Shown here one piece after another: positions 1,371 to 63,765 of a stretch of 64,000 bases of DNA (position 1 is its first letter; every line of letters begins with the position of its first letter). Source of the stretch: Ligula intestinalis (taxonomy: Eukaryota > Platyhelminthes > Cestoda > Diphyllobothriidea > Diphyllobothriidae); assembly GCA_036362985.1 (NCBI GenBank), contig JAYGXS010000004.1, positions 26,904,083 through 26,968,082 on the forward strand. The letters are read 5' to 3'. The notes beneath the pieces are model-generated. The model was not told the DNA's origin and made no database searches. It saw only the letters and a list, made by a program, of their open reading frames with translations. The position numbers and the translations under genes were made by a program.

Positions 1371-4300
1371 TATTAAGGATACATATAGAGATAAGTAAGT
1401 AAGCAGCGGAAGGAAATTTCGCTTTTTATTTATAGTGCGCTATTTGGTTGTGAAAACTTAAGATTATTTAAACAAGGTCTGAGACCCAATGTAGGATTCC
1501 AACAATTTTCTTAAATTTTTGCATGTGCCAAAATTGTACGTTTCCTGTTTCGTAAGGCCTCACTCGTAAAAATTCGCGATGTCAATATTACCGGCGGCTC
1601 TCAGTTATGGTTCGGGGACACTTAACACGCCCATTTCTGAGCAGTCCCAAGAACACGAAGTGAGTTGCATAGCAGGTTCATGTACGAAAGCGACATAACT
1701 TGCGCTTGCTTTCATTGGATCCACCAATGCTATTGAATGGCCCTAAACTGTTTAGAACATATATAAAGTGACTATGTTTTCCACTGAAACAGATTAGCTA
1801 AAAGAAGTTTTGTAAGTCTTGCAGCGATACCCCTGCAAACATCCAAGAAGAAAAGATTGGTAAAATCGTATTTTGGACTATTCATTATCACACCGGTACC
1901 CTAGCAATCGTCACAATAGGGCAGCGCAATAAGAAAACCAGCCAATGAACAAAAATGTCGAGAGCTAGCTTTGAGGGTGTCTAGACATGTCCGACGATAA
2001 GGAGAACTTACCGTGCACATGTGTGCGGGGGCAGGAGGACGGCCAGTGTTTTGCTTGCGCTTCGTCAGTTCAAAGCGGTGTGGTAGGATAGGCGTGGTAA
2101 AATATTATGCCCAGCATGGGTAAAAGTAGCCGGAGGACTTGAAATAGGGCGATTTCTCAGCCGCCAATACCTTTGCGGTCAAACAGTATTCTAATGATAC
2201 AGAAGAAAAGTACAAATTTTACCGCCAAGTTACCAGATTTGTAATTATGTGTACATTGCACTTGCTTTTGTCACGTAAAGATGGCTACCATCCAAATATG
2301 ATAATCTTACTGAATAATGCTTTCATATATTTCAGTAGCCAGACTTTTATTTACCTCATTCGCTTAAGTTTTCTGTAGTAACACAGCAAAAAATGAGCAT
2401 GTCTCTTCCCAACTGTAGGTCTTACGCCGGCTAAAAAAGACAGTAATTTAGAGCAGTAGTGGGGTACAGCAGTAAATAAGTTACAAAATGATGAGCAAAA
2501 ATAGGCACTTGAGAATTGAGACAGATTATTGGGGACAAGTACATGCAAAGGAAAATAAAACGTATGGATTGTTAACCAGTTCTACATATGTTTTCAGTTT
2601 TTTTCTTTAATTTTATTCAGAAACAAGTCAACAATTTCACTAGCATTGTCATTATGAGCTTTCGACCTTTTTCTGTTATATAACGAAAAACAAATCAATC
2701 TGCTAACTTTCAAAGAAAATTAGTACAGTTCTTAGCTTGATTTTTAGAATACTTTGGCATTCATTCTGTGATCGACGACACGCAGGGAGCCTAGTTATGT
2801 TCGTCTTGTAGCCGGAGTAGTGACATGTTAGATTTCAACCAGGACTTATATGAACCGAATGAACGAGCAATGCTTCGCCAGGCAACTTGTGAAGTGTCAA
2901 ATTCCGACCAGGCGACGTCACTTAAAATTCGTTTTACAGGTAGCGGACTCGGTAGTTGTAAAACAAAGTGATGCATGGCAATTAAATTTAGGAAAGCTTG
3001 AAAATTTCGACCAGGAACTGTCTATAAGAGAATATCCGACACAGCGCAATACTTTAAAGTTAAACCAGAACTGATTACCCGGGAGGTCAATAAGAAGACT
3101 GATTTCACTTGTATTCTCCTAAAAAACCTTCCCCTCAAGGTAAATTAGGGACCGATAACCATATTTACCCCCAAAACGTATACACTAGTGACAGTGGAAT
3201 ACAGAGAGACATTGGTACGCTCAAAATCCCTCTTTGACGGAAAGGAACAGAGGTCAATGCCATATTCAAAAGGCCATTCAAACGATGCTTCCCATTAACG
3301 ATGATATGCCAGAGTACAGCATTTTACCACTTGCTAAACAAATTCGTCCGGTTCATCGATGTCCATCGAAGCGAAATGAAGATCACAGTTCGCCCTTCGA
3401 ATATCAATGCAGAAAAGCATATTCATTTGCAGCCACTTTCAGAAAAACTCCTACTGAAGGTCGCAAGAATCAGAAGTGCGTGTCCACATATAACAATTGA
3501 ACACTGAACACGGAGACTAATGACGCATGAATGTAACAAAATAAGACCCAAAGATCCGCTTGTAAGACTCAGCAATAGCCAATTTTACGCGTTGTAAGTC
3601 GGTTCCCAAGCCTGTACAGCGAGCTTCAAATTCCAAATATATTTGTTTGGTCTCGTTTCTCAAAAACGGACTTTTAGGTACATACCGCAGTCTGATCAGA
3701 TCAAGAAATTTTGTATTTTTTGTAAATAAGGCAGCCTTTTTACTTTTCGGCGTCCTCCAAAATGTCATGTACTGTTTCTCTCTAGTAGCGTACCAAAACA
3801 TCGACAGCCCTCTTTTAGATAGAATCGTACCAAATAAGGTGTAAACTGCTGTACCGAGATTAGTACAAACGTTACCTTTACGATTTTAAAATTAAGTCAT
3901 AAAATGTTTGCATAAACTGTTTTCTAGTCAATTAATCGCACCTCATTGTGGCTGTGGACGCAACGCAACATCAGCTGGTCCTGATTCTGTATTCCTCTCC
4001 TTCGAGTCACTTTACTTGTCTGAAGGATGACACTGAGGTATTGAACGCTGCCCATCCATCGCTTCACAGGAAATTGGAATTACAACAAAGCAGGAATGGA
4101 ATGCGCTATAAGCAGTTTAAGTCAAACCCATGGCAGTTCTTCGGCCTGTCAACAAAGTGTTCTCTACCATCACCTAATTAATGTCAAGTATGAACAGGAA
4201 GTCAAAAGACTGCGAAGAAGCCGTGCTTTTTGCAAAATATATCACAGCCCTCCTTTTCGTTTGCTTGTTTGCTTGCTTGCGTGGATCACCACATAAACCA

Positions 4301-11104: not shown

Positions 11105-11640
11105 TGACGTGATATAATTTCGCGACCTCTTATTCAACTGCAAACGGTCAATGCTTATTTATAAGGTAAATAAGCTGTCCAATTGCGTGTCGACCTAGAG
11201 GGCTAAAAACTTGATGGGTAAATAGAGTGTACGCTTTTGGTCTTAGATTTGGGCGCCTGATGAGGGGATAGAGCAGGGGGAGGCAGTTGCTATAGCATGG
11301 CAGTTCATGTTCATTAAAACCTGTGAGACATGGTTCAAGAGGGAGGGCACAGGATGGGGGAGCAGTTAGTCCTAGGGAGGAGGGAGGAGGCGAGAGGAGG
11401 GATGAGTTTATCGATCGTTTCCATGGCAATGCAGGGTTTATCACATGATGTAGCTGCTTACAGAGTTCCGGTTTTCTTCGTTGCATTGCAGCGACCTCCG
11501 CAAACGGTATGAAACGCTCGGTCGTCGCCCGAAGTACCACCTTAAATGCAGTCTTTTGGTTGACTGCATGGCCAGTGTCCAATATGTGTTTCGTGATTGA
11601 ACTCTTGGGGATTTTGTTATCAACCCTATCAAAATTCCCT
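11105..11640 (-). mobile_element. Penelope-like element, GIY-YIG C-terminus and 3' tail
   Basis: The minus-strand frame contains the PLE endonuclease C-terminal signature: DTGHAVNQKTAFKVVLRATT, then R-F, AEVAAM and KPELCKQLHHV. A frameshift near 11,580 joins it to an upstream SITKHIL-like segment. It is followed by the element's 3' tail (LGRHAIGQLIYLINK read-through) ending near 11,105. PLEs are retroelements whose RT is related to telomerase. Only the extreme 3' end is present here, as in most 5'-truncated copies. It lies in the LIM-gene intron between 10,762 and 12,705. Confidence 0.7.
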
Positions 11641-17935: not shown

Positions 17936-17939
17936 ATAT

Positions 17940-18330
17940 TTTGACTGAGCAACGAGGTGCCTGGAAAAGAAGGTACGTGCACACATACCGGCTTGGCTAA
18001 AAAAGGTGCAACTAGATGGCACAGCCTGTCGAGAAAAATCACCGAATCGATATTAAGTTAGCCTTTCAGGTTGTCTACCGGACACCAGCCAACTTTCCAA
18101 AGGGCCTTCGCCAACGGGTGCTAGCAGCAGCCGAGGTAGTAGCTATACGGCTACCAAGTCCAGTGCTGTGTTGTCAGAAGACACTTATGCAAGCACTTGG
18201 TAACAGTTGTTCACTCTGTGCAACTGACATTAATTTTCGCTCCGCGTACCTGACTTATGAGCAATGCTCAGAGCTTATCCTAATTTCCCCTGCTCCCTCT
18301 CTCCCTCCCTCCCCAAATTAATGACCTCTA
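17940..18330 (+). mobile_element. Penelope-like element fragment of a second lineage (GIY-YIG C-terminus)
   Basis: Starting near 17,945 the plus strand reads, with a frameshift, VRAHIPAWLKK, then KNHRIDIKLAFQVVYRTPAN and FPKGLRQRVLAAAEVVAIRL, LCCQK. This is the GIY-YIG C-terminal half of the PLE lineage with a CSCG...IREHLPAWL signature. It differs from the DDRTSRLLQEAW lineage that it abuts. It is truncated at both ends. Confidence 0.65.
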
Positions 18331-39614: not shown

Positions 39615-39667
39615 CGTGAGAAGATTTTTCACAACCTGAGTGACGCCTAGGACCATCAACGGCTTAC
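37079..39667 (-). other. Intron of the LIM gene with a (TA)n tract
   Basis: Donor GTAAG at 39663-39667 follows the large first coding exon. The acceptor is at 37079-37080. Apart from a (TA)n tract close to the donor, nothing was recognised. Confidence 0.55.
39582..39612. repeat. (TA)n microsatellite
   Basis: About 15 TA dinucleotides without interruption, about 55 bases into the intron from the donor of the first coding exon. Confidence 0.9.
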
Positions 39668-41182
39668 CGAGAGAGTCCCGTAGGTCGGAAGTCTTTCTTC
39701 AGTCGACTTTTTAGGGGCTGTGTCCGTGCTCGATTTCACGGTCACCCCCTCCCGCAGATTATTCACTTCCTGCTGGTACGCCATTCGCTGACTCTTCGTG
39801 TAAGTCCGGTTTATTTGAATGGGTGAACTGGCAAGACGGCGGGGCACTAGTGGGTTCGTAGTCTCCCACTCGTACGCGCCGATTCTGGGGTGCTGCAATT
39901 CATTTCTAGGCTTAAAGTAGGCAGGAGGACTCTGATAGGTCATACATGCTGTATTCTGGACAGCTGGAGGTATTGCATCCGTCTTCTCCTGTTCGCTCTC
40001 AGTCGTAGTAAGAGCTAGGTCCGGGTCCGACCGATACCAAAATGTCGTTTTCCGTGGTAGATACGATTCAGTATGACGCGGAGGATAGCGCTTAGACGTG
40101 ACGATTTCTGTTGGGACATCATAATATCTCGCAGGCGTATAATCCCTAGATAGCCAATTGGAATAGCCTACGGGAAAGGTCTTGTTCGGCGCCGCCGCCA
40201 ACTCCTTCCTCTGTTCTCTGTTCCACGTGGATTTTGACTGAGTCGCAACCTTGTTTAGCTGTGGTTCAGACCGATACAAATCACGCCTACTTTTCTCCGT
40301 TTGTTGACTTTTAAGTGGCCTAATCCTCTGGTTCATGTTTCTCTTTGCAGCGCTCCCGGAGAGGGACCTTGAACTGGCCTGGGTATTCCAAACTGGAGGT
40401 ACATGGCCTCGTAGAGAAGAGAGGCTGGAAGAAGCTTTATAACAGGTTGGCGTGCCGAGTGCCCGTCTGCTCTGTGGTGACCGATAGAGCTGCCTTGCTT
40501 CTCGTATCCGTTGACCCTTCCCAGAAGGGGCTCCCGCGACAAATTTCCAATGCTGATTCGGTCCAGGTGGATAGAAGGGTGGGCGGTCAGTGAGGGAGGC
40601 ATGTCGTGTCAGCGGCGGTCGCCTGTAAAGTCCGGCAAACGAACATGCCGGTGGACTCTCGGCTCTTCTGATAGGAGGGCTGCTTGTTAACCCGAAGTAT
40701 GCTGTTGGTAGAATTATGTATCCAGGCGGAAACTGTAGACTGCTCTTGGTCCCATCCGTTGCTCTTGATGGCTCCAGTACAGAGACAGAAGATAGGTAGG
40801 GCTCAAAGGCGGCGTCTTCCGGAGCAGTAAAGTCACCTGGGAATTTTACACAATTGTCTTTATCAGCCAAACTGTCTTCTTCAATGTATTGCGCAAGGGA
40901 GGCTGCAGACGCGCTGGAGGCAATTTCGCTGCTGCTCCTGCTATCAATTGCCCATGGTGGAGAAAGACTTCCAGTCCACACATCAGGAAAATGTCTTTTT
41001 TCATAGTGTCGCGGCGGTGCATTCAGCATGTACTCGCGAGGTCTGGGCTTATCTGGTCCCGCTGAATGTGCCCTTCGTCCGTCCTCCGGTCGTTTTTTGT
41101 GATGCTGGGTAGTTTTATCACTTGTATTGGCAGTTTTATCACTTGTATTGGCAACTTTATCGCCTTTCGATGGGGTAGCCAT
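39668..41182 (-). CDS. LIM-domain gene, first coding exon (505 codons)
   Basis: This is the longest open frame in the window. I start it at the ATG at 41182 (CTAATGG context). The frame is open a further 26 codons upstream but without an ATG. It ends at donor TCG|GTAAG in phase 0. The protein is Ser/Pro/Arg/Tyr-rich, with no membrane segment and no globular domain that I recognise. It includes an ANTSDKT heptapeptide in tandem (a 21-bp duplication at 41111-41152), a Ser/Ala patch (RSSSEIASSASAASLAQYIE), and a recurring Y-R-S-D/E-P-x-L motif (DLYRSEPQLN, FWYRSDPDLA). It resembles the disordered N-terminal halves of cytoskeletal LIM proteins. Joining it to the LIM exon is inferred from strand, order and matching phases. 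Confidence 0.75.
41111..41152 (-). repeat. 21-bp in-frame tandem duplication
   Basis: Two identical 21-bp units encode a doubled ANTSDKT heptapeptide near the N-terminus of the LIM-gene product. Length polymorphism would keep the frame. Confidence 0.85.
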
Positions 41183-42885
41183 TAGCAAACTGCGACAAGT
41201 AGTTGAGCTCTTCGAGTGTGCTGGCTTTTCAATACCATTTTCGCCGACAGTAGAACGCACTCACCCGTCGGGCAACAGTTACCAATGTCCATACTTTGGG
41301 CGTCACCACGCCGAAGTCCAATTGACTAACAGTTGGGCAAGGACCGGTTGGCGTAGTGCTCTAGCGTGCATGATTATTGACTACCATTTACGCGTGTGTG
41401 CTCACGTGAGTTGAGGGAATAGGGCGTTATCACGCACTCAGTGGCCGTAATTTGCTTAAACTCGCCCTCAAAGGCTGGATTTGCGCACTTATTGACTGGT
41501 CTGGCGTTTCAACCAATCCTAGTCACGCTTCCACCGTCAAGAGTTCGTGCAGTTACTCTAAGCTGTGGGTAGAGGATAACTACAGGTGAATCACATAGAG
41601 GTCCACGGTAAACGTTTACGAAGTAGGCTGCTAAAAAATTCATTCGAAAGTAATTTTAATATTTTTATCTTCACTGCTGCTTATACACTAGACTCCACAC
41701 GCTACTTCTGGGGCTTAAAGACAAAAGCCTGAGTCATTTATGTTTTTCTGTTACAAACCTCTAACAAAATGTTGATTTAAAGCGCGAACTGGTCACTTTA
41801 TATATTTATTCCTCCTCAGCGTATATTAGTTTGCAATGTTTGTGAATCAAAAGTTTGACCGTTTTATGGCATATGACGTACAATCTTTGTCTAAGTCACA
41901 TCTGCCATGGCATTAATATTACGAAGGTGCAGCCAGCTTCCGAAAGGAGTCAGCCAAACTGTATTTAAATACCCATCCATTAAAAGAAATTGCCTTGGAA
42001 AAGACTGACTTGAATGAACGAGGTTTTGGACGTAAAATTACCTTAGAGGCCTTTTCTATAATGGGACTTGTTTTGTTTAAATAACTTACATAAGATAAAG
42101 ATCATTGAATCAGAAAACCACAATAATCAAAAAGAAGGAAATTAAGCGCACATTCTCTATTTATTACTATAAAAATTGCTCGGAAACATGTCCCAAGACA
42201 AATTTATCAGCATTTTTCTAGTCAATCGCATAACTGATCTGTTATTGAAATATAGTTATTGTTTGCGAACATAATTTTATCAACCCATATTGCAGGTTAC
42301 TTCCTATAAAAGAATGTGACAAACGTTTGTGTGATTCCCTAAACCTTAAGGATCTAGTCCTAACAAAAGTCGTGGAATAATACTGATCCAATTCATGTAA
42401 GCATACTTTCAAAATAGCTGGAAGCTGCTGGTTCATTTAAAATTGTTAATTCTGTCAGACCCTGTTTGTCTGACTTAAAGCAAGCATTGTGACATTGTTC
42501 GTTAAAGATTATAACCAGAAACGCTTAAAAATTGTCCATATTCAGTGTAATTTGTATGCATTTAAGGTTTTGGGTTTCTGAAGAGATTTTCAGGGTGGTC
42601 ATTTCGTGCAATGGTTTATTAATATGCTTCATGTTTGACGTATAAGTAATGTCATATTCCACTTCTGTAATGTGATCTTTTTGAAATAATTGGTCATGGT
42701 GACGTCTGGTTGGATTTCTTGGGACAAATGAGTAGATTTATGGGCATTTCAAGAAACTATCTTAATAACCTCGGTTACATATGTTCCAGTGCCACTTGAA
42801 CGGGGAAAACGTAGGTGACCGAATTTTACCCTGTGCACTACCGACTGGTACCCAAACGGCAGTTCACCGACTCGCGAACTCGGCA
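41183..42885. other. 5' flank of the LIM gene
   Basis: This should contain the 5' UTR and promoter of the minus-strand gene. A donor-like ACGG|GTGAGT (minus strand, near 41,259-41,267) and an acceptor-like CTTGTCGCAG just before the ATG could mark a 5' UTR intron. I saw no TATA box in a convincing position and no other gene. Confidence 0.35.
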
Positions 42886-47977: not shown

Positions 47978-49500
47978 TTATCGTTTTAATCATGGTCGAG
48001 GATATTATAATTAGATGGGACAAGGAAATATGTATTCTCCTGTGGTAAATTATAGAGGTTTGAGTGTCAGCGTTGAGGATGGGTTAAGGGCAACGACATG
48101 AGAATAGGTTTTCCGGATAATTTTGCTCAAGGTCAACTATCCCATTGGGATCCCTATTCTTATATTGAAGTGTTGACATATATTACATTGAGCAGAGTTC
48201 TGCATAACAAACAGTTAGAATGTTAGTATTTCTAGATTGAAACTTGCAGACGAGTGCGGTCACAGAATATGATACGAACTCTTCCATTAGACGGTACTTC
48301 TGCTGCAGGTGGACAAAGTTACGTCTCTGGAACGGTCGTTTTTGATCCACGAAAATGTAGGAATGAAGCTTGCTGAGCAAACAAAGTGATCAACACACCC
48401 GGAATCGAAAAAGGATTTGATTTATTTTCAATTATTTTTTCCAGTTCATCTTTCGAAAACTGTGCGTGGCTTGGCTTTGCTTTCCCAGTGGTAGAATTAT
48501 CAGCGTCCAAGTTGTCCACTTTCAAAGACTTGTTTCGTGTACTCTACATTAGTAGGAGTCCCCCGCTGTTAACCTTTAGCGGTAGAGGAACGTTCTTTTT
48601 CTCCTCATCTCACGCTGTAGCATTCTGAACCATCAAAAACAATTGAATTGTGAAGTATTTATTTGATGCAGGCTTTTCAGTATTTCTTGCTCTTTTTATT
48701 TCTCTTCGTTCCAATTTTTTTATGACTTTGCAAATTTTTCAGTAATTGGCCTTCAAATGGTTTTCGTGTTATTGAGGTATTTGGGGATCGTATCATATTT
48801 TTATTTTAGTCATTTATTTCGCGAATCTACGGGATAGATCATGAATATTTTAAAGTTGATCATTACCAAGGTCGTAACTCATTTGTTCTCAGCAAGTTAC
48901 ACCATGCACTTTTTACAAGCACCTACATGCATATTGGTGGTTGTCCTTAACTCTATTTTTTTGTAAGGCCCATGCCAACTCTTTCGATATCGAGAGTTCG
49001 TGGATTATTCCGCAATTTCGTAACACAGGTTTTCAGTGTACTATTCATGTTCCATTTTGTCAACTTGGCACACTGAATAAAATGTATATTTAGTTTTGCG
49101 CTTTCCTTAGAAGTTTCACAACAATTCAGTCCAACTTCTGTCATGTATACATATTAGCTTCCAAGGCTCACCTTGACTCAGCGATTAAAACCCTTCCGGA
49201 TCAATTGGCTTAATAGTGTATTTTAGATCTCGAACGATCTTTCAACATTCCATCCCCCACTTAATTGAGGAATATATCAAATTATATTTAAAAACCTTAC
49301 AAGCATTAGCATTGCTCAGCAGACCATACTTCAGTGTTTAGCAGTTTTTTTATCCGTTGATCTATTTTCATCTATTCTATTATATTTTTTAATCTATTTA
49401 TCGTTTAATCTATTCCGGTTCGTTTTTTTTTACGGTTCTTGTGAAACAAATAAAACTCACTACACTTCTTATTGAAAAGAAAGCACTATTCCTCAAAATC
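47978..49500. other. Stretch with no supported gene
   Basis: A 68-codon minus-strand frame (48319-48525) contains a protein-like stretch (QFSKDELEKIIENKSNPFSI) that I cannot assign. It lacks an ATG and convincing splice sites. Confidence 0.35.
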
Positions 49501-49504
49501 CACT

Positions 49505-50060
49505 TTCGAGGGAACCCAGCAAGTAAACTCCTAAAAGCCGTTTCACGAACCTTCCCAGCAGTGAGATTTCGGATACCATTCTGAATCAACCCAAGCTTGA
49601 ATGGGGAAGGTAAGTTTATGTTACCCGCTCAGACCACCTCCCTGTGCAGCTGCTTCTTTACTTGCTACTGTGGAGCAGCTTATATTGATTGCACGAGTCG
49701 GTGCCTATCCAAAAAAATAAGGGAACATCTCTCAACATGGCTGAGAAAAGGTGAATTCAGGCACAGGTGAACCCTTATTCTGGCGCACATGGTTAATTCC
49801 TGACATCGGGTGGACCTACAGCAGAATCGATCGCCATCAGGCTACTTTGAGCGGTCCAATGCGCCCAAAAGAACATCATCGCGCCGCCGCAGTTACCATG
49901 GCCAAAAGTCGCGAATCCACCAGCCAGTAGCTTATCACCTCGCCTGAATCTCACCTAACCCTGATCAGATTTTTAACCCCGATCCCGCCCTTTTCCCTCC
50001 ACCTGCCCTGACAACCGCACTAATTGTTCCACCAACCCGTATGGTTTATTTACTTAATTA
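49505..50060 (+). mobile_element. Penelope-like element fragment (linker, GIY-YIG domain, tail)
   Basis: In shifting frames the plus strand reads LLKAVSRTFPAVRFRIPF, then FTCYCGAAYIDCTSRCLSKK, IREHLSTWLRKGEF and a proline-rich tail. CxCGAxYI-x-x-TSR-x-LS-x-x-I-x-EHL is the GIY-YIG core of one PLE lineage, with the expected linker in front. The Y-I-G of the core is Y-I-D here, and stops follow, so the copy is dead. Confidence 0.7.
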
Positions 50061-50674: not shown

Positions 50675-51200
50675 AGAAGCAGGACTTATTAATATTAATA
50701 AATTTCGTGACAGCTTCTCAGCTGTATCGTTTCGCTGCGTGAGGAACATAGCGAGGAGACATAAAGCAGTTGGGAATTTCACAGAATTATTGGTATAACA
50801 GCAAGGACCGTGGTTCAGTTTCAATAATAATTGACAAAGAACGGTGCGTTCAGTCAAGTTATGGGAAGTAGTGGGTGAGGGAATTAATGAAAAACGTGGG
50901 AATTAAATTCAGTGACCAATTACCAGGGCAATTGGAGGTTGACCACCTGGGCAAGCTGCTTGCATAGGTGATGTTTCTCCCATCTGATGAAGCAGCTTCT
51001 AAAAAGCGCAGAATTTGGTTTGTTCGGGACTGAACAATTACTTGAAACGCTGTCTTGACGTCGAGAGAATGATCGCTGTCTAGTAGATGCTTGGTAATAG
51101 AGGACCTTGGTATGCTGTCTTCTTGCTTGGAACGCCACTTAGGCAAGTGCTCAGTGGCCCGGCTGCCAGTTGCTTTTGCATACGCCCAATTTACTTGCAT
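50675..51200 (-). mobile_element. Penelope-like element, GIY-YIG C-terminus and tail
   Basis: The minus-strand frame reads RSSITKHLLDSDHSLDVKT, AFQVIVQSRTNQILRFLEAA, then SSLPRWSTSNCPGNW and the tail. It is colinear with the minus-strand copy at 11.1-11.6 kb. The tail region (50,680-50,800) reappears in reverse complement near 51,500-51,610. Confidence 0.7.
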
Positions 51201-51499
51201 CCGAAAGTACGCGCGAATTCATACACACAATTTGGGGTGGCGTGCAATGGGAAGGCATCCTTTGCCCTTGTTACTGGAATGCTTTTAGTGGAACTTAAGA
51301 AGACGAGTTTTGCTGCGTTATAGGTAGTTTCTATAGAACAGCGTCACCATCGCTTGCCTGTATTGGAAATTATGTCACCCTTGAAGGGTAAGGATATAAT
51401 GGCGGGCTTCTTTGGAACTGAGTGTTCCATCATTTTGGCCGAAGAGAACTGCTCTACTTCTGAATAAAGCGTGCCGGATAGCCACAGTCGTGTAGGGCT

Positions 51500-55099: not shown

Positions 55100-55800
55100 C
55101 AATTATTTTCGTCGTTTCACGGCGGTGAGTCATGGGACTAGGGGCGGGCAGAGCGTGGGTCGAATAAAAGAAGGCTAGTGATGCGACGGTGAGCGTTTGG
55201 GGGAGCCGGTCCATGGAGGACGGGGGAGAGAGCGCGGGCAATTGCATGCAGTTAAGTCAAAGTTTACCATGCCAGGCGGTTCTTTTATGCACTCGAGGCT
55301 TACTTCCTCAACCTGATAGCGGTCGCTTCTCTGATTGCGAGCAGACGCTAACCCAGAGACTTGCAATAGTTCCGTAGGACAGTATAAATCGTTCGGATGT
55401 CTTTGTTGGGGGCCATACGAAGTCCGGAATCAATTATGTGCGAGCAAATAGGGCTGTTTATGCGTCTGGCTTCTCTTTTTCTCAGCCATGCTGGGCGGAT
55501 TTTTTTCATTCTTTTAGATAGGCATCAACTAGTGCTCCAGTGCATTCGTCGACACTCCTATTTTCAGCTGATTTGTCAATAGGAACTGGCAAATTTAACC
55601 GTCTATTCCGGTGCCCGGGACGTTTGTAAACAACGATGGGACGTCGAGAGAGAGCAGCAGCATGCCACTTGTGTTCACGTCCTTGATGTCGGAGATAAAT
55701 TTGAACATATCTCGATAGTTACTTTAAGCCATCTGATACGTTAAGGATTTGAGTTTCTCTGCTAGCCCCTTGGTTATCGCATGATACGGCCAGTTAGACA
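55100..55800 (-). mobile_element. Penelope-like element with RT motif A joined to GIY-YIG fragment
   Basis: On the minus strand near 55,600-55,760 the frame reads MFKFISDIKDVNTSGMLLLS, LDVPSLFTNVPGTGIDG: the RT motif A region (S-x-DV-x-SLFTNVP). It is followed, after lost sequence and frameshifts, by PAWLRK-like GIY-YIG sequence and the tail (SLECIKEPPGMVNFDLTAC). The catalytic Asp of motif A is visible, but motif C (YVDD) is missing from this copy, so there is an internal deletion. Confidence 0.65.
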
Positions 55801-56295
55801 TTTCCAAAATCGCGTATAACTTACTCCTGTGAAGGAGGTTGTATTGGTCACACGAGTCGCCACCTATTTGCAAGAATAAGAGAAAACCTACCGGCATGGC
55901 TGGGTAAAAGTGTAACCAGGCGCATAAACAGCGCTATTTGCTCGCACATTGTTGATTCCGGGCCTCGTGTAGCCCTAACGAATCATCAGGTCCCACCAAA
56001 CTAACCCAAGTCTCTGGTTCAGCACCTGCTCACAACCAGAGAAGCGACCGCTATCATGTTTATGAAGACGGTCGTGTGTGCACTAAAGAACCTCCTGCAA
56101 GATCCGCACCTGGCATGGTAAACTGTGACTTTACTGTATATACTTGCCCGCGCTCTCCCTCCGCCCGCCCTATTCCTCCTCAGTTGACTAGTTCAACCAA
56201 ACCCTCACTGCCGTGTAATTTGCCTTCCTCCATTGATCTCCGCTCAGCCCGCCTTTACTCCTATGACTCATTGCAATGAAATGGCGAACATAATT
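55801..56295 (+). mobile_element. Penelope-like element, GIY-YIG fragment in opposite orientation
   Basis: The plus strand reads GHTSRHLFARIRENLPAWLG, INSAICSHIVDSG, then TTREATAIMF, CALKNLLQDP and a proline-rich tail ending near 56,290. It is the same lineage as the minus-strand fragment directly to its left, giving another head-to-head pair. The hammerhead array begins 110 bases further on. Confidence 0.7.
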
Positions 56296-56675
56296 TACCG
56301 CATATTTTGTCTTTGACCCTGTTCCAATGTAAATGCTAGGGCCCGATGAGAGTACTTTCGACAACTGCTAACATTGATTATCTAGTTGGAATTTTCGGAA
56401 GTTTAAAAAACGTGTCTCGGCCTTTTAGCAAGTACCTAGGCTGTCAGTATGGTAAGGTACACCGTCAATTTATTCTACTAACGACTGTCTGATGGCAGCA
56501 TGCGCATATTTCACAGAGGCTGGCGGGTTTCAACTAGAATATACACTTGCAATTTCGATCTACGCCTATAGACCTTAAATAGACTGATAAATACCGCGCT
56601 CAGAAATTAATTTCTCCGCAGATAAAAAGCTGAACTTTCAAAAACCGGTATATCAATCAGAAAGCAGATAGGGAA

Positions 56676-56758
56676 AGCTGGGCTACCCACTGATGAGCCA
56701 GAACCCTCACAGCTGTGTCAAGCAGCAACAGAATACCGGCAAAACCCATGTCTGGGCC
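56676..56758 (+). ncRNA. Type I hammerhead ribozyme, copy 1 (degraded)
   Basis: The core CTGATGA (56690-56696) is preceded by CCCA, which pairs with TGGG directly after the predicted cleavage site GTC (56750-56752). Stem II pairs GCCAG with CCGGC with one mismatch. The GAAA box is mutated to AAAA and the stem III palindrome reads CCCATG instead of CACGTG, so this copy is probably inactive or weak. The stem II arm contains a nested GCTG/CAGC hairpin. Confidence 0.75.
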
Positions 56759-57012
56759 TTTTAGCAAGTAACTAGGCTGTTAGTATGGTACGTTTCAACG
56801 TCAATTTATATTACTAACGACTGTCTGATGGGAGCATGTGTATATTTCACAGGGGTTAACGGGTTTCAACACGAATTTATGCTAACAATTTCGGTCTTCG
56901 CCTTTAGACCTCAATTACACTGATATTTACCGCGATAAGCAATTAATTTCTCTGGAGATTAAAAAGCCGAACTTACAAAAACCGGTATAGCAAACGGAAA
57001 GCAGATAGGGAA

Positions 57013-57096
57013 AGCTGGGCGACCCGCTGATGAGCCGGAGCCCTCGCAGCTGTGTCAAGCAGCGGAAGAATACCGACGAAACACGTGTCTGGGCCT
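57013..57096 (+). ncRNA. Type I hammerhead ribozyme, copy 2 (near-intact core)
   Basis: CTGATGA (57027-57033), GAAAC (57078-57082) and cleavage triplet GTC (57087-57089) are all present. Stem I pairs CCCG with TGGG (one G-U). Stem II pairs GCCGG with CCGAC (one mismatch, restored when compared with copy 1). Stem III is the self-complementary CACGTG, the very short stem typical of retrozyme and PLE hammerheads that work best as dimers. All core residues required for self-cleavage are seen. Confidence 0.8.
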
Positions 57097-57147
57097 TTTA
57101 GCAAGTATCTAGGCTGTTAGTATGGTAAGTTACAACGTCAATTTTCA

Positions 57148-58339: not shown

Positions 58340-58870
58340 ATTTATTACTAAAAGTTATATGTGTTTCGGGGGAATAGGCTCAATTACACTCCTCGTTCTC
58401 ATGCCAAATGAGTCAATGTTTTGAACTGGGAGAGCGGAGCTGTGGAGGGGACAAATGGGTGGGGTGTGAACGCTGTCTTGGCTGTAAACCCGCGGAGTGC
58501 GTATGACTGTTATCAGGGGATTAATGTGATGTGTAATTATCATTTGGATTCCACCTGGGGAGATAAACTGTCCGTATAAAGGTCTGCTAACATTAAAGCG
58601 TTGGCTTCGCTGACAGAATGGCCAATTTTTCGGGCGCAATTTGGCGCAGAAATTTAGAAGACCTTGCTGGTGCTCGATAGTGAAGTTGAGAGGCTTCTTT
58701 GGATTTAACGTGATGCTTTGCATCCCTTAAATACGCAAGAATATATGTGTTTTCGCGTGCACATTCGTTTTCATGCGCCCCTTTGCACAGCCAATATGTT
58801 ACGTCCCATGGGAGAAAGGGAATGAGAAAAACACGCATTGGTGTTGCTTCCAACGGCACTCAGTGTTTAC
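58340..58870 (-). mobile_element. Penelope-like element fragment, third lineage
   Basis: The minus-strand frame reads CKGAHENECARENTYILAYL, RDAKHHVKSKEASQLHYRAP, ARSSKFLRQI, then KLAILSAKPTL. This keeps the PLE endonuclease C-terminal pattern (H-x3-H-x-V...R-A...F-L-R-x-x-EA-x-AI...KP-x-L) but with different residues from the other two lineages. A second, shifted frame (58355-58723) continues the tail. Assignment to PLE rests on this pattern only. Confidence 0.45.
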
Positions 58871-59937
58871 CCGTCTCCCCCCCCCCAAACCATTAAAAAA
58901 GAGTCTGACTTTCGCTCAATCATTCCCCTGCTGCGTCTGTTTCGAAAGGCAATCTTATAAATGGGTTTACCTTTTCTACAATTGTAATGGCAGGGTTTGA
59001 GGCACGCTCCTTGGTATTGCAGAGAAGCAATCTCGCTGCAAATTCACTTTCGCGGAGTCTGTTCCGAAGCCGTTGGAGCCCTGATTCTAGAGTCTGAAGA
59101 GAGCAGATACGTCATTCTCTAACAGTCAATCCCAGGATTAAATTTTAGTCTAGATTTATGGGAACAACACCATGGCAATTAATGTATTTTCCAGTCTTTG
59201 TTTTCTTTTCATAATACTTTAAATTGGTTGCACTCATTCATTGCCTTTATCGAAGGAAACCAAGAAAAACTATTTCGAAATACGCCTTAGTCTCTGCAGC
59301 ATACTTTAATGAGGGGTATGCCTGGTTAAACTTCTAACCTGGGCTGTCATTAGATAATATTGCTGGCCAAGACAAGGGAGACTGGAGTGACCACTTCTAG
59401 CTTATTAGCCAGACAAGAGCTTCGAGCTTTGGGTGGCGGACCACTTGGGGCTGGGTATGACTGGCTGATGGCAACGCATACCTCAGTTTATGCGACAATA
59501 CTAGTTTCCTAGAACTACTAGCCGCTGTTAGGGCCCCAGAAATGAGGTTCAAGGTGGAGCGCGACAGGTGCGTTCCGTTTGCAGTGGGCCATCAGTGCTG
59601 GTGGTAAAACTTGTCAGGCAACGGATATCACTCCGTACCGATCGGAGAAATTCAGGTCATTGATAGTGTCCTTGAGTCTCGCTTACTGAACCCAGTCCAT
59701 GAAAACCTTTGCAATAAATGCCACCAATTTGCCTGTCTAGCTGGCCATTGCAGAAAAAATGGGAATTTTGTTTGCGTCGCGCAACTAGGGCTTTTCGGTT
59801 TTCCACTGTCACGCCTATGCGGTAGTCTGTTTGCCTAATGCAGTCAAATTACTAGATCATTCTTTCTACCACGGTTCCAACAGTAATCAGGGATAATAAT
59901 CTAACGAGAGCATCCTCCGTCCATCACTGTTAATATT
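58871..59937. other. Stretch with no supported gene
   Basis: A GC-richer block (about 59,400-59,620) looks like an old repeat, but no protein motif was recognised. A 75-codon plus-strand frame at 59611-59838 contains NKCHQFACLAGHC and is not assignable. Confidence 0.35.
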
Positions 59938-61140: not shown

Positions 61141-61307
61141 TATGTTTGCAGTAATTACTGCATCCTATAATTACTGCAGACTCCTGTGCATGTGCTATCC
61201 TATCTGCTATTGCTCTCTGACTATATCTGTGATGACGAATCCACGACGAATATCGAAACCTTAGGCAACTAAAAGTATTTTCCCAGCGATAGAGTCGTCT
61301 TCTTCTC

Positions 61308-61580
61308 AAGGGTATCCCTCAACCTTCAGGGCTACAGACAATTTTAAAGTGGCTTGAACTTTTCTACCAGCTATTTTTGCAGTGATGTGGTAGTGTACAT
61401 TTAGCATATCCAAGATGAGACGTAGGCCACACCTTTTTCTGTGAATTCTTGGAAGACCGTACACTCTGGGTATTGCCGTACACGCAGGTCTTAGGCTTTC
61501 ATGGTCCTTGGTAGGCAGAAGCTCTACTTTGTGAAGACAATTGAACACTTTCTTTAACCACGAAGTACCATTAAACATAC
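61308..61580 (-). mobile_element. Penelope-like element, RT N-terminal fragment
   Basis: The minus-strand frame reads WLKKVFNCLHKVELLPTKDH, ESLRPACTAIPRVYGLPRI, HRKRCGLRLILDMLNVHYH. R-P-x-x-T-x-IPR-x-YGLP-K/R-IH-x...LR-x-I-D is the conserved entry to the PLE reverse transcriptase. It stops before motif A. This is the only such N-terminal RT piece recognised here. Confidence 0.75.
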
Positions 61581-63329
61581 ACCTTATTTCTGACTCCTAA
61601 TGAGTTTTTCTCATGCACATCCCTATTTATCCATGTGAGTACTCACTATTTTCCTCCTTGGTGGTAGACCACTAGATGTATGTAAATCTTCGATCAAAAT
61701 TGAGTATAAATATTCGCTTGTACCTAATTAATTTGTCATTAGATTGAATTTTTCGGACCATATAAAAAACAAGCATTTCCGTTTTATTTTATATGTACAT
61801 AGGGACAGCTGATGATATATATGACACTACATTCTATAAAACTGCTTCCATTTCATTGCACCCTCAACCTTCTATTTGCCACTCATCCGAATGAGTCCGT
61901 TTATATCTATGCCGAATAAGATTTCCAACAATGTGGCCTCTGCCGACGTGTGTCTTTCGACGCTCGCCGATCAAAATAGATGTAACGAACCGCGCACGAA
62001 CCAGTCGTCAATTCGAAGGCGCTAACGAATGATTCAATCTCCCAACCTTATCATGTTAACGGTAATCTGCGGCTTTTACTGAAAGGAATTTGAATAATTG
62101 GTGAAAGTTTAAAGTTAACTTATGATGTAAAGTTTACTTTGCACGGTGACAGACTTATATGCGGATGTTCTCTGATGTATAGACTTATATATCTACTATG
62201 TGCAATTTTGTAGGCGGAATTATGTTTATTGCTGCCCTCCAAAACTTGGAAAACTTTAGCTCTAAGGGGTACTTTTAGGCTCATTTGTTTCAGTTTTAGA
62301 TTAGTTTTTAGTTTAGTGCCTTGTTTATTAGATTAATATTATTTTAAGTTTTAGTTTTGACATACGATTTCTTGTCGGCTAATCATACTACATCATCCGT
62401 TTAAATGCATGAGAAGCTATTGTGCGTTTTCAACAATTGGGGAAACGTTATTTTTAATAGTTTTATGTAATTCCTAAATTTCCATACAAATTTTATATTG
62501 GTTTGTAGCATATTTTTGGGTACGTTTGCACATATCTTGGTTCCTATCGGTTGTTTTCGTCATTTCAACTATTGCGTGCAAATTTCTGGTTATTTTAATC
62601 ACTATTTCGCATAATCTTTTTGCTTTCATACGCTAATCTTTCTTTCCTGTAATATAATCCCAATTTCTACCAACCTCGCAAGAAACAGTGATAAGACCGG
62701 TGATATATAAGTCCCTCGGTATATGATAATATTGCCCTTTGCACGTTGAAAAACTGTCAGTTAATCAGGCTGCAGTAAAAATTTGAGGCAATTCGCATAT
62801 TAACGCATGTTTTTTTAATTTGTTAAGCTAAACGTATATTAAGAAATTATGTTGAATAGATAGTAAAACATGCATGCATGGGAGGTTTTAAAGAACAAAA
62901 GGCTTCTTAACACAATATGCTGTAGTATGTGCAGAAACTTCAGGCAAGTACGTTCATTCCCCTGATTTCATTATGTTTGCCAAAATAGTACCACAGCTCG
63001 TTCAATCATAAAATTTGCTATCAAACTCTTTCTCAAAAGATAAACTGAATTGCGACAGCATTAATTTTTAACTATAGCAACGTACAGAAAATTGATACTT
63101 GATTTTTTAGCAAGTGTTATCCTCAATTTCTCTATTAATTGAGTCACATTCATGGCAAAAACGAATCACCTTCTCTAAAATCCGGAGACTTTTGAAGAAT
63201 CTCTGAAAAGGACTGGATTAACTACCCGAATTCACAGCAATTTGGGCCTATTTCTTTCTGATATTTGTAATCAAATAGAACATAAGCTTTGATTTTAGGA
63301 GATTTTGGCGAATTTGCTCAATTAAATTA
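61581..63329. other. AT-rich stretch with no supported gene
   Basis: No open frames of note. A TAGTTTTAGTTT-type tract at about 62,290-62,360 resembles the one near 22.0 kb. Confidence 0.45.
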
Positions 63330-63644: not shown

Positions 63645-63765
63645 GTGAGCCTGGTAGCTCAATGGTAGAGCATTGGCTGTGCGAAAGCCTTTCCTGCTGT
63701 GTGGGTTCGACTCCCACCGAGGTGGTGAATTTCTCACAATTTAGGCAACTGAGACAACATTGGTG
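63645..63765 (+). mobile_element. tRNA-derived SINE (A and B box preserved)
   Basis: An A-box region (TAGCTCAATGGTAGAGCA), an anticodon-like stem-loop (GGCT-GTGCGAA-AGCC) and a perfect T-arm (GTGGG-TTCGACT-CCCAC) are in tRNA order. The acceptor stem has mismatches and the variable region is 11 bases, so it is not a functional tRNA gene. The unrelated 3' region (AATTTCTCACAATTTAGGCAAC) is shared with the inverted copy, as expected for a SINE body. Internal RNA polymerase III promoter boxes are intact. Confidence 0.7.

Follow-up and report, generated by a model that had tools for sequence, protein, structure and literature searches.

Organization of the tandem array

The window analyzed here, a stretch of 64,000 nucleotides of the Ligula intestinalis genome (C4:26904083-26968082), contains on its forward strand a tandem insertion at 56406..57144 (+), corresponding to positions 1089-1827 of locus L024 and consisting of a partial unit, two units and a second partial unit. 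Positions within the unit are given as phases, counted from the first base past the predicted hammerhead cleavage site, and the insertion runs from phase 326 to phase 54. The 5' partial unit (56406..56416, +) comprises the last 11 nt of the unit, with GTC at its end. Unit 1, of 336 nt, occupies 56417..56752 (+) and is followed by unit 2, of 337 nt, at 56753..57089 (+), which serves as the phase reference. The 3' partial unit (57090..57144, +) covers phases 0-54 and stops within priming window A (ACAACGTCAATTT), one of two preferred end sites described below. The other, priming window B (phases 212-227), lies inside unit 2 at 56965..56980 (+); unit 1 reads GCTGAAC at this site and unit 2 GCCGAAC. 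Tandem Repeats Finder, run on the window, reports 2.2 copies with a period of 336/337 at 56405-57144, and the tandem array of two units of 336/337 bp proposed in the first-pass annotation is present at 56417-56752 and 56753-57089.

The 337-bp unit has a GC content of 44% and is non-coding, the longest stop-free stretch in three tandem units being 56 aa. The two units of the window differ by 0.18, and the insertion is therefore old. Judged by its sequence, the array is a single old, decayed insertion of a dispersed tapeworm family, probably of retrozymes.

The hammerhead motif

The second hammerhead copy (57021..57095, +) is of type I and has an intact core, with CTGATGA at 57027-57033, GAAA at 57078-57081, the palindrome CACGTG at 57082-57087 and GTC at 57087-57089; cleavage is predicted after 57089. 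Its fold comprises a short stem I, a stem II of 5 bp with one C-A mismatch (57035/57076), a long loop II, in which an extra stem may form, and a stem III of 2 bp (A-U and C-G) capped by the palindromic loop ACGU (ACACGTGT, 57081..57088, +). With so short a stem III and a palindromic loop, the hammerheads would probably act as pairs. The core of the first copy (56690..56752, +, from CTGATGA to GTC) is broken: AAAA replaces GAAA at 56741-56744, with the loss of the catalytic G12, the palindrome has been lost and reads CCCATG, and stem II contains an A-C mismatch. The first-pass annotation had counted two complete type I hammerheads, which describes the core of copy 2 correctly and that of copy 1 not.

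A scan of both strands of the 64 kb with a type I motif, written after copy 2 had been seen and allowing one stem II mismatch, found one site (copy 2), whereas 200 base-composition shuffles gave 0.025 sites on average. At the gathering cut-off Rfam reports no hammerhead in the window; the Hammerhead_1 model scores 19.4 bits there and 22 bits at L029, the sole locus listed among six retrozyme loci (ten sources searched), against a curated cut-off of 34. The match to a covariance model that had been suggested as a check of the motif thus stays below threshold. The low score is likely caused by loop II, which is much longer than in the Hammerhead_1 model.

Near-complete hammerheads were collected from the fetched loci, with L046 excluded, and the core is intact in 102 of these 262 copies. 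For all 23 base pairs tested, the frequency of formation is close to that expected from independent decay. It is literally true that the two copies in the window restore each other's stem II mismatch, which the first-pass annotation had taken as compensation in favor of a real fold; since no covariation is seen in the 262 copies, this carries no weight, and the two mismatches represent two independent losses from an intact source. In viral contigs, a 28-mer taken from the hammerhead/stem I region had no matches.

A dispersed family of decayed copies

The genome searched comprises 644 Mb in 2377 contigs. With up to two mismatches, a 25-mer taken from around the cleavage site has at least 1607 sites in it, and the reversed pattern has none; a similarity search yielded at least 152 matches from 38 scored of 2839 candidates. 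The further genomic copies expected by the first-pass annotation are accordingly present. Over 183 units, identity to the majority sequence has a median of 89% and reaches 98.8% in the best preserved one. Units within one array are on average 0.138 apart (33 loci), and units of different loci 0.125 (49 loci), as expected if near-identical templates gave rise to each insertion, which subsequently decayed. Some arrays are long, reaching about 9 kb in L036 and about 7 kb in L043. The long array of L043 contains sub-blocks of related units, and one unit pair of L030 is 0.9% apart, the smallest distance recorded (0.009), in an array at 14%; the sequences of L043, L036 and L030 are consistent with later local duplication on top of insertion.

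These long arrays with related sub-blocks, of the kind that later recombination gives, together with the close unit pair of L030 and the decay of all copies without covariation, would also fit ordinary satellite DNA spread and enlarged by unequal crossing-over, in which the hammerhead is a relic without a role. Such an origin appears improbable, given the 1607 sites distributed genome-wide and a divergence within arrays (0.138) that is not below that between loci (0.125), indicating little homogenization. Target duplications above chance, fixed end sites, and inverted and half-unit forms in the insertions examined, all described below, also speak against a satellite.

The best reading of the element from its sequence is that of a metazoan non-LTR retrozyme, forming a new family in a diphyllobothriid tapeworm, with RNA activity that is predicted. 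The first-pass annotation had proposed a retrozyme, and the type I hammerhead, the non-coding tandem unit of 337 bp with 44% GC, the 1607 sites, the target duplications and the insertion anatomy common to the loci examined agree with this. A literature search found no retrozyme in tapeworms and no PLE-type end anatomy for retrozymes, and the literature retrieved for retrozymes and cestodes concerns other elements; the suggestion that the family is undescribed is consistent with this result.

Target duplications

A flank match score of at least 7 was obtained for 13 of 54 insertions, whereas 300 random re-pairings of flanks gave 0.87 on average and 4.2 at most. The matched stretches may include bases fitting the unit too, and the other 41 insertions stay under 7. 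Clear target duplications are present in L012, L031, L034, L047, L050, L057, L062 and L070. The retrozyme of L009 is inserted in a copy of a Penelope-like element (PLE) that is 93-94% identical to the PLE of locus L071. The uninterrupted L071 has the L009 target once, and the two flanks overlap there by 14 bp. The copy in the window has only a weak duplication candidate, AATTTTC, which was left out of the count.

Two preferred insertion ends

The loci were aligned to tandem copies of the unit from the window, and for each insertion the phase of the last RNA-sense base before the flank was recorded as a primed end. The discovery loci were chosen by similarity to the array in the window, and two windows, A (phases 44-60) and B (phases 212-227), were fixed from the first loci before more were fetched. 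Site A lies about 51 nt and site B about 218 nt past the cleavage site. Together the windows cover 33/337 of the unit, so that 9.8% of ends would be expected in them by chance. In the discovery set they contain 32 of 42 primed ends. A first hold-out set, formed by the first 22 unfetched places of the 25-mer site list, taken in order, gave 28/34 (binomial probability 4e-23 at 33/337). In the second, comprising 12 loci of contig C2 in list order with one place skipped near C2:16532600, 12/14 ends fall in A or B, and the remaining two are at phases 41 and 211. The hold-out loci were found via a 25-mer just before A and represent the insertions that carry it. Two loci picked because they are inverted have two of their four ends in A or B and the others at 40 and 210.

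Over all four sets, 74 of 94 primed ends are located in the windows, 46 in A and 28 in B. Some of the 20 ends outside are a few nucleotides off or just before an indel; those of L020, L056 and L058 and the second end of L027 are outside without such an explanation. For this strict count we set aside L046, any cluster at an edge or N gap, and segments of less than about 70 nt. When the alignment was loosened and the windows were widened, 62 of 77 ends in loci L009-L070 fall in A or B, after 14 clusters were dropped (N gaps, edges, weak matches and the duplicate contig L046).

In the 31 direct insertions of this looser alignment the primed end is A in 20, B in four and elsewhere in seven, and the 5' ends are spread, with two in A and five in B. 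At the sites the ends are spread over 10-16 nt. Neither A nor B disturbs the long arrays, which continue across both, and insertions also run through the cleavage site. Four short direct insertions of about half a unit, extending from just past B to A under the stricter alignment (L052, L063, L152 and L157), look as if synthesis started at A had halted where B was occupied or cut. The same four would be expected if A and B were places at which the RNA is cut, linear pieces being then copied from their 3' ends. This explanation is unlikely: the ends are scattered, both sites are crossed undisturbed in long arrays, the 5' ends of the direct insertions are not confined to them, and a PLE protein starts internally, as reported in the available text of PMC11167929.

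In the predicted fold of the unit from the window, A and B are situated at hairpin loops. Over 25 natural units the openness of A reaches a rank of 72% only, and the predicted circular fold as the cause of the two sites was set aside as weakly supportive only.

Inverted insertions pair A with B

Head-to-head inverted insertions are frequent, accounting for 9/33, 11/23 and 2/12 of the insertions in the three unpicked sets. Both of their outer ends are primed ends, and the four sets together contain 24 such insertions. Nineteen combine an A end with a B end, none has two A or two B ends, and in five at least one end is outside the windows. With the looser aligner, 16 of 23 inversions in L009-L070 are of the A+B type, and A+A and B+B are again lacking. 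L027, with ends at A and 322, is inverted by the looser alignment and was counted as direct in the strict one, its second piece being shorter than 70 nt. At 23 inner junctions the two arms overlap by at least 2 nt in 12 cases and by 0-1 nt in four, and seven contain filler or unaligned sequence. In L034 (1089-1183) the inverted arms with a TAG-rich filler match Rfam mir-230 at 36.3 bits, below the cut-off of 72.7, which is a false hairpin made by the inverted insertion.

LINEs also produce duplications of 7-14 bp, and head-to-head inversions whose junctions share short homology are among their products too; a retrozyme moved by a LINE-type enzyme, its inversions being ordinary L1 twin priming, would account for target duplications of this size and for the overlap of 2 nt or more at 12 of the 23 junctions. 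A LINE-type enzyme is nonetheless an unlikely source. Both outer ends of the inversions are internal and fixed, inversions are frequent in all three unpicked sets, no common poly(A) tail was seen by eye at the printed 3' flanks, and the end words match those of a PLE sharing the two-site anatomy, in a comparison that covered the ends of one PLE family. Simple L1-like twin priming was dropped as the origin of the inversions because the outer ends are both fixed and of different kind.

Many copies with inverted arms, some of them with target duplications, might also suggest a DNA transposon or other inverted-repeat element having A and B as termini. We regard this as highly improbable, since A and B differ and the arms copy one strand of the same unit; moreover, the arms are of variable length, and many insertions are direct and have just one fixed end.

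Penelope-like elements of the L071 family

A reverse transcriptase fragment on the reverse strand of the window (61306-61596, -) has relatives genome-wide: all 150 scored candidates, of 2824, match it, and their open frames reach 887 aa. The 887-aa frame of L071 contains the Pfam domain RVT_1, the only match at E 0.001, with no match to the GIY-YIG endonuclease at this level. It has 827 relatives. Among the 120 listed, many are from flatworms, and GIY-YIG (PF01541) is annotated in two of these 120. Direct repeats are located at both ends of the L071 frame (1169-1261 and 3949-4041), and an inverted piece in front of them (646-768) exceeds the 3' repeat in length by 30 nt. By its sequence L071 has a PLE layout, with pLTR copies in direct and inverted orientation, one of which carries a tail of about 30 nt. 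Each repeat contains a minimal core resembling a hammerhead, in which a palindrome takes the position of stem III; related PLEs have other palindromes there (AACGATCGTT, ACATATGT and ACAATTGT). The core in L071 is not listed as a hammerhead by Rfam and was missed by the type I motif scan.

The L071 family has 536 hammerhead sites in the genome, and 60 ends were fetched. Like the retrozyme, these PLEs end at two sites: among the first 40 ends, 24 are at site 1, 13 at site 2 and three elsewhere. The next 20, which include four chosen as inverted pairs, comprise ten at site 1, seven at site 2, two elsewhere and one that runs into the open frame. In three of five inverted PLEs (L071, L112/L113 and L125/L126) a site 1 end is combined with a site 2 end; one of the others has ends at 62 and 52, and L128/L129 has two site 1 ends. 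The same 30-nt flank is present on both outer ends of L128/L129 (C1:114687457-114690356), a pattern that an inverted duplication of the site or an error in the assembly would produce. For the PLE pairs, target duplications were judged by eye.

PLE remains are abundant in the window. Remnants of a PLE open frame lie head-to-head at 55535-56166, some 240 bp upstream of the retrozyme array, with 55535-55819 (-) corresponding to L071 residues 354-448 and 55816-56166 (+) to residues 714-828; by sequence this looks like an inverted PLE insertion. A tblastn search with the L071 frame found more fragments at 58443-59333, 49453-49925, 17937-18201, 51018-51412, 61354-61509 and 11421-11633.

Junction words shared by retrozyme and PLE

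The modal ends of the PLE are CTTTTCAA^T at site 1 and TTCGCTGAA^C at site 2, and those of the retrozyme are CGTCAA^T at A and AAGCTGAA^C at B, where the caret marks the junction. Two junction-spanning words are common to both elements, the 5-nt TCAAT (TCAA^T) and the 8-nt GCTGAACT, which includes GCTGAA^C. The chance of sharing words of 5 and 8 nt in exact register at a random pair of positions is about 0.0045 and 0.0002, respectively, and the joint chance with free assignment of sites is 2e-6, or 4e-5 if a register slip of 2 is allowed. When only the junctions of L071 itself are used, the 8-nt word is found for B, and for A just TCAAT with its register shifted by 3 nt. Mapping of 40 PLE ends preceded the comparison of modal junctions, and the modes were chosen after the data had been seen; the ends of one PLE family were examined, and the word at site 1 has 5 nt only. 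Because the modes are post hoc and one PLE family was compared, we treat the match to the L071 family as strong but not final evidence; some other PLE or LINE family may fit A and B better.

The insertion ends thus point to a PLE enzyme as the machinery that copies such retrozymes into DNA. On the evidence of these sequences, the array in the window is probably a decayed insertion of a non-LTR retrozyme that measures about 337 nt, carries a type I hammerhead and was written in by a PLE enzyme. We lean slightly towards the more specific proposal that an L071-type PLE is the helper, a dimeric particle of which would prime the strands of a staggered cut at the look-alike sites A and B of one RNA circle.

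Proposed route of insertion

The proposed route starts from features read directly in the insertions, namely the two end sites, the rule that A goes with B, the target duplications, the run through the cleavage site and the parallel with the PLE. Tandem retrozyme copies would be transcribed, and the hammerheads, probably paired, would cut the transcript to monomers, which would be closed to circles as in other animal retrozymes. A PLE particle would then take up the retrozyme RNA as a template, which would be circular or multimeric, given that insertions continue across the cleavage site. The PLE protein would make staggered cuts in both target strands, roughly 7-14 nt apart, and each target 3' end could prime inside the RNA, one at A and the other at B, internal priming at these sites being suggested by the insertions that end there. 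Synthesis would cross the cleavage site and might circle several times, producing tandem units. If both strands are primed, the two cDNAs would meet and join, often via short homology, giving a head-to-head inversion, and if one strand is primed, a plain array would result.

With an L071-type helper, the two start sites on a single circle would explain why an A end is paired with a B end, and tandem and inverted copies alike would be accounted for. PLE-type inverted insertions would then arise when a single particle uses two sites of the same RNA to prime both strands of the target.

Comparison with known elements

Several properties of the tapeworm element agree with the description of metazoan non-LTR retrozymes in the available text of Cervera and de la Pena 2020 (PMC7229834): the type I hammerhead, units of 170-400 nt, a range from dimers to long multimers, a GC content below 45-50%, target duplications of more than 4 bp and co-existing PLEs. 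The tapeworm family differs from the retrozymes described there in its host group, its sequence and its very long loop II, and the two fixed internal ends and A+B inversions do not form part of that description. The axolotl retrozyme hammerheads HHR_Amex1/2 have a helix III of 1-2 bp with a tetraloop and are more active as dimers, according to the same available text (PMC7229834). Compared by description, the tetraloop of HHR_Amex1 is palindromic, like the loop of the tapeworm hammerhead, in a different host (PMC7229834).

Regarding the enzyme, the accessible part of PMC11167929 reports that the purified protein of an Anolis PLE (Poseidon) extends both target strands and starts inside the RNA at two adjacent sites, mostly in an AC-rich stem loop. 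The two adjacent start sites are linked there to the optional tail of genomic PLE copies (PMC11167929). The Anolis PLE also carries a hammerhead, as the tapeworm retrozyme does; its purified protein showed no difference in start site between the strands (PMC11167929), whereas A and B of the tapeworm retrozyme are used on opposite strands. For rotifer PLEs (Penelope of Adineta), the text available from PMC3846280 describes possible inverted pLTRs, a 31-bp tail and duplications of 8-10 bp, some copies having none. Of the PLE features described in these sources (PMC11167929, PMC3846280), an inverted terminal piece and short target duplications are seen in the tapeworm retrozyme as well, and two internal starts and the priming of both strands are proposed for it. 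PLEs encode their enzyme, whereas the retrozyme has no open frame, and the two sites are about 30 nt apart in the L071 PLE and about 167 nt apart on the 337-nt retrozyme unit.

Flatworms have other hammerhead repeats, and SM-alpha is a hammerhead satellite of schistosomes. The W-elements of schistosomes are likewise flatworm repeats with hammerheads, and a function has been reported for some of them (PMC8490949, available text). No two-site end anatomy was seen in that text for schistosome satellites (PMC8490949).

Because PLEs and retrozymes both carry hammerheads and co-occur, PLEs were named strong or likely candidates for the mobilization of animal retrozymes in 2020, in the parts available of PMC7229834 and PMC7761336. 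The end sites, the A+B rule and the junction words bring a specific helper and specific start sites to this question. If true, the L071-type PLE would be, as far as known, the first named helper of an animal retrozyme, with a mechanism of entry. Assessed by sequence, the element itself joins the known metazoan non-LTR retrozymes, and what is new is the evidence on the manner of its insertion and on the enzyme.

Other features of the window

An open reading frame of 534 aa is located on the reverse strand at 39656-41260 (-). It has three homologues at E 0.001 or better, all from Diphyllobothriidae: Dibothriocephalus latus (88% over 63%), Schistocephalus solidus and Spirometra. These homologues place the window in a diphyllobothriid tapeworm; a COX1 search gave no match. 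At 63648-63725 a tRNA match exceeds the Rfam cut-off with 35.6 bits and contains an odd variable stretch; it may represent a tRNA gene or a tRNA-derived repeat.
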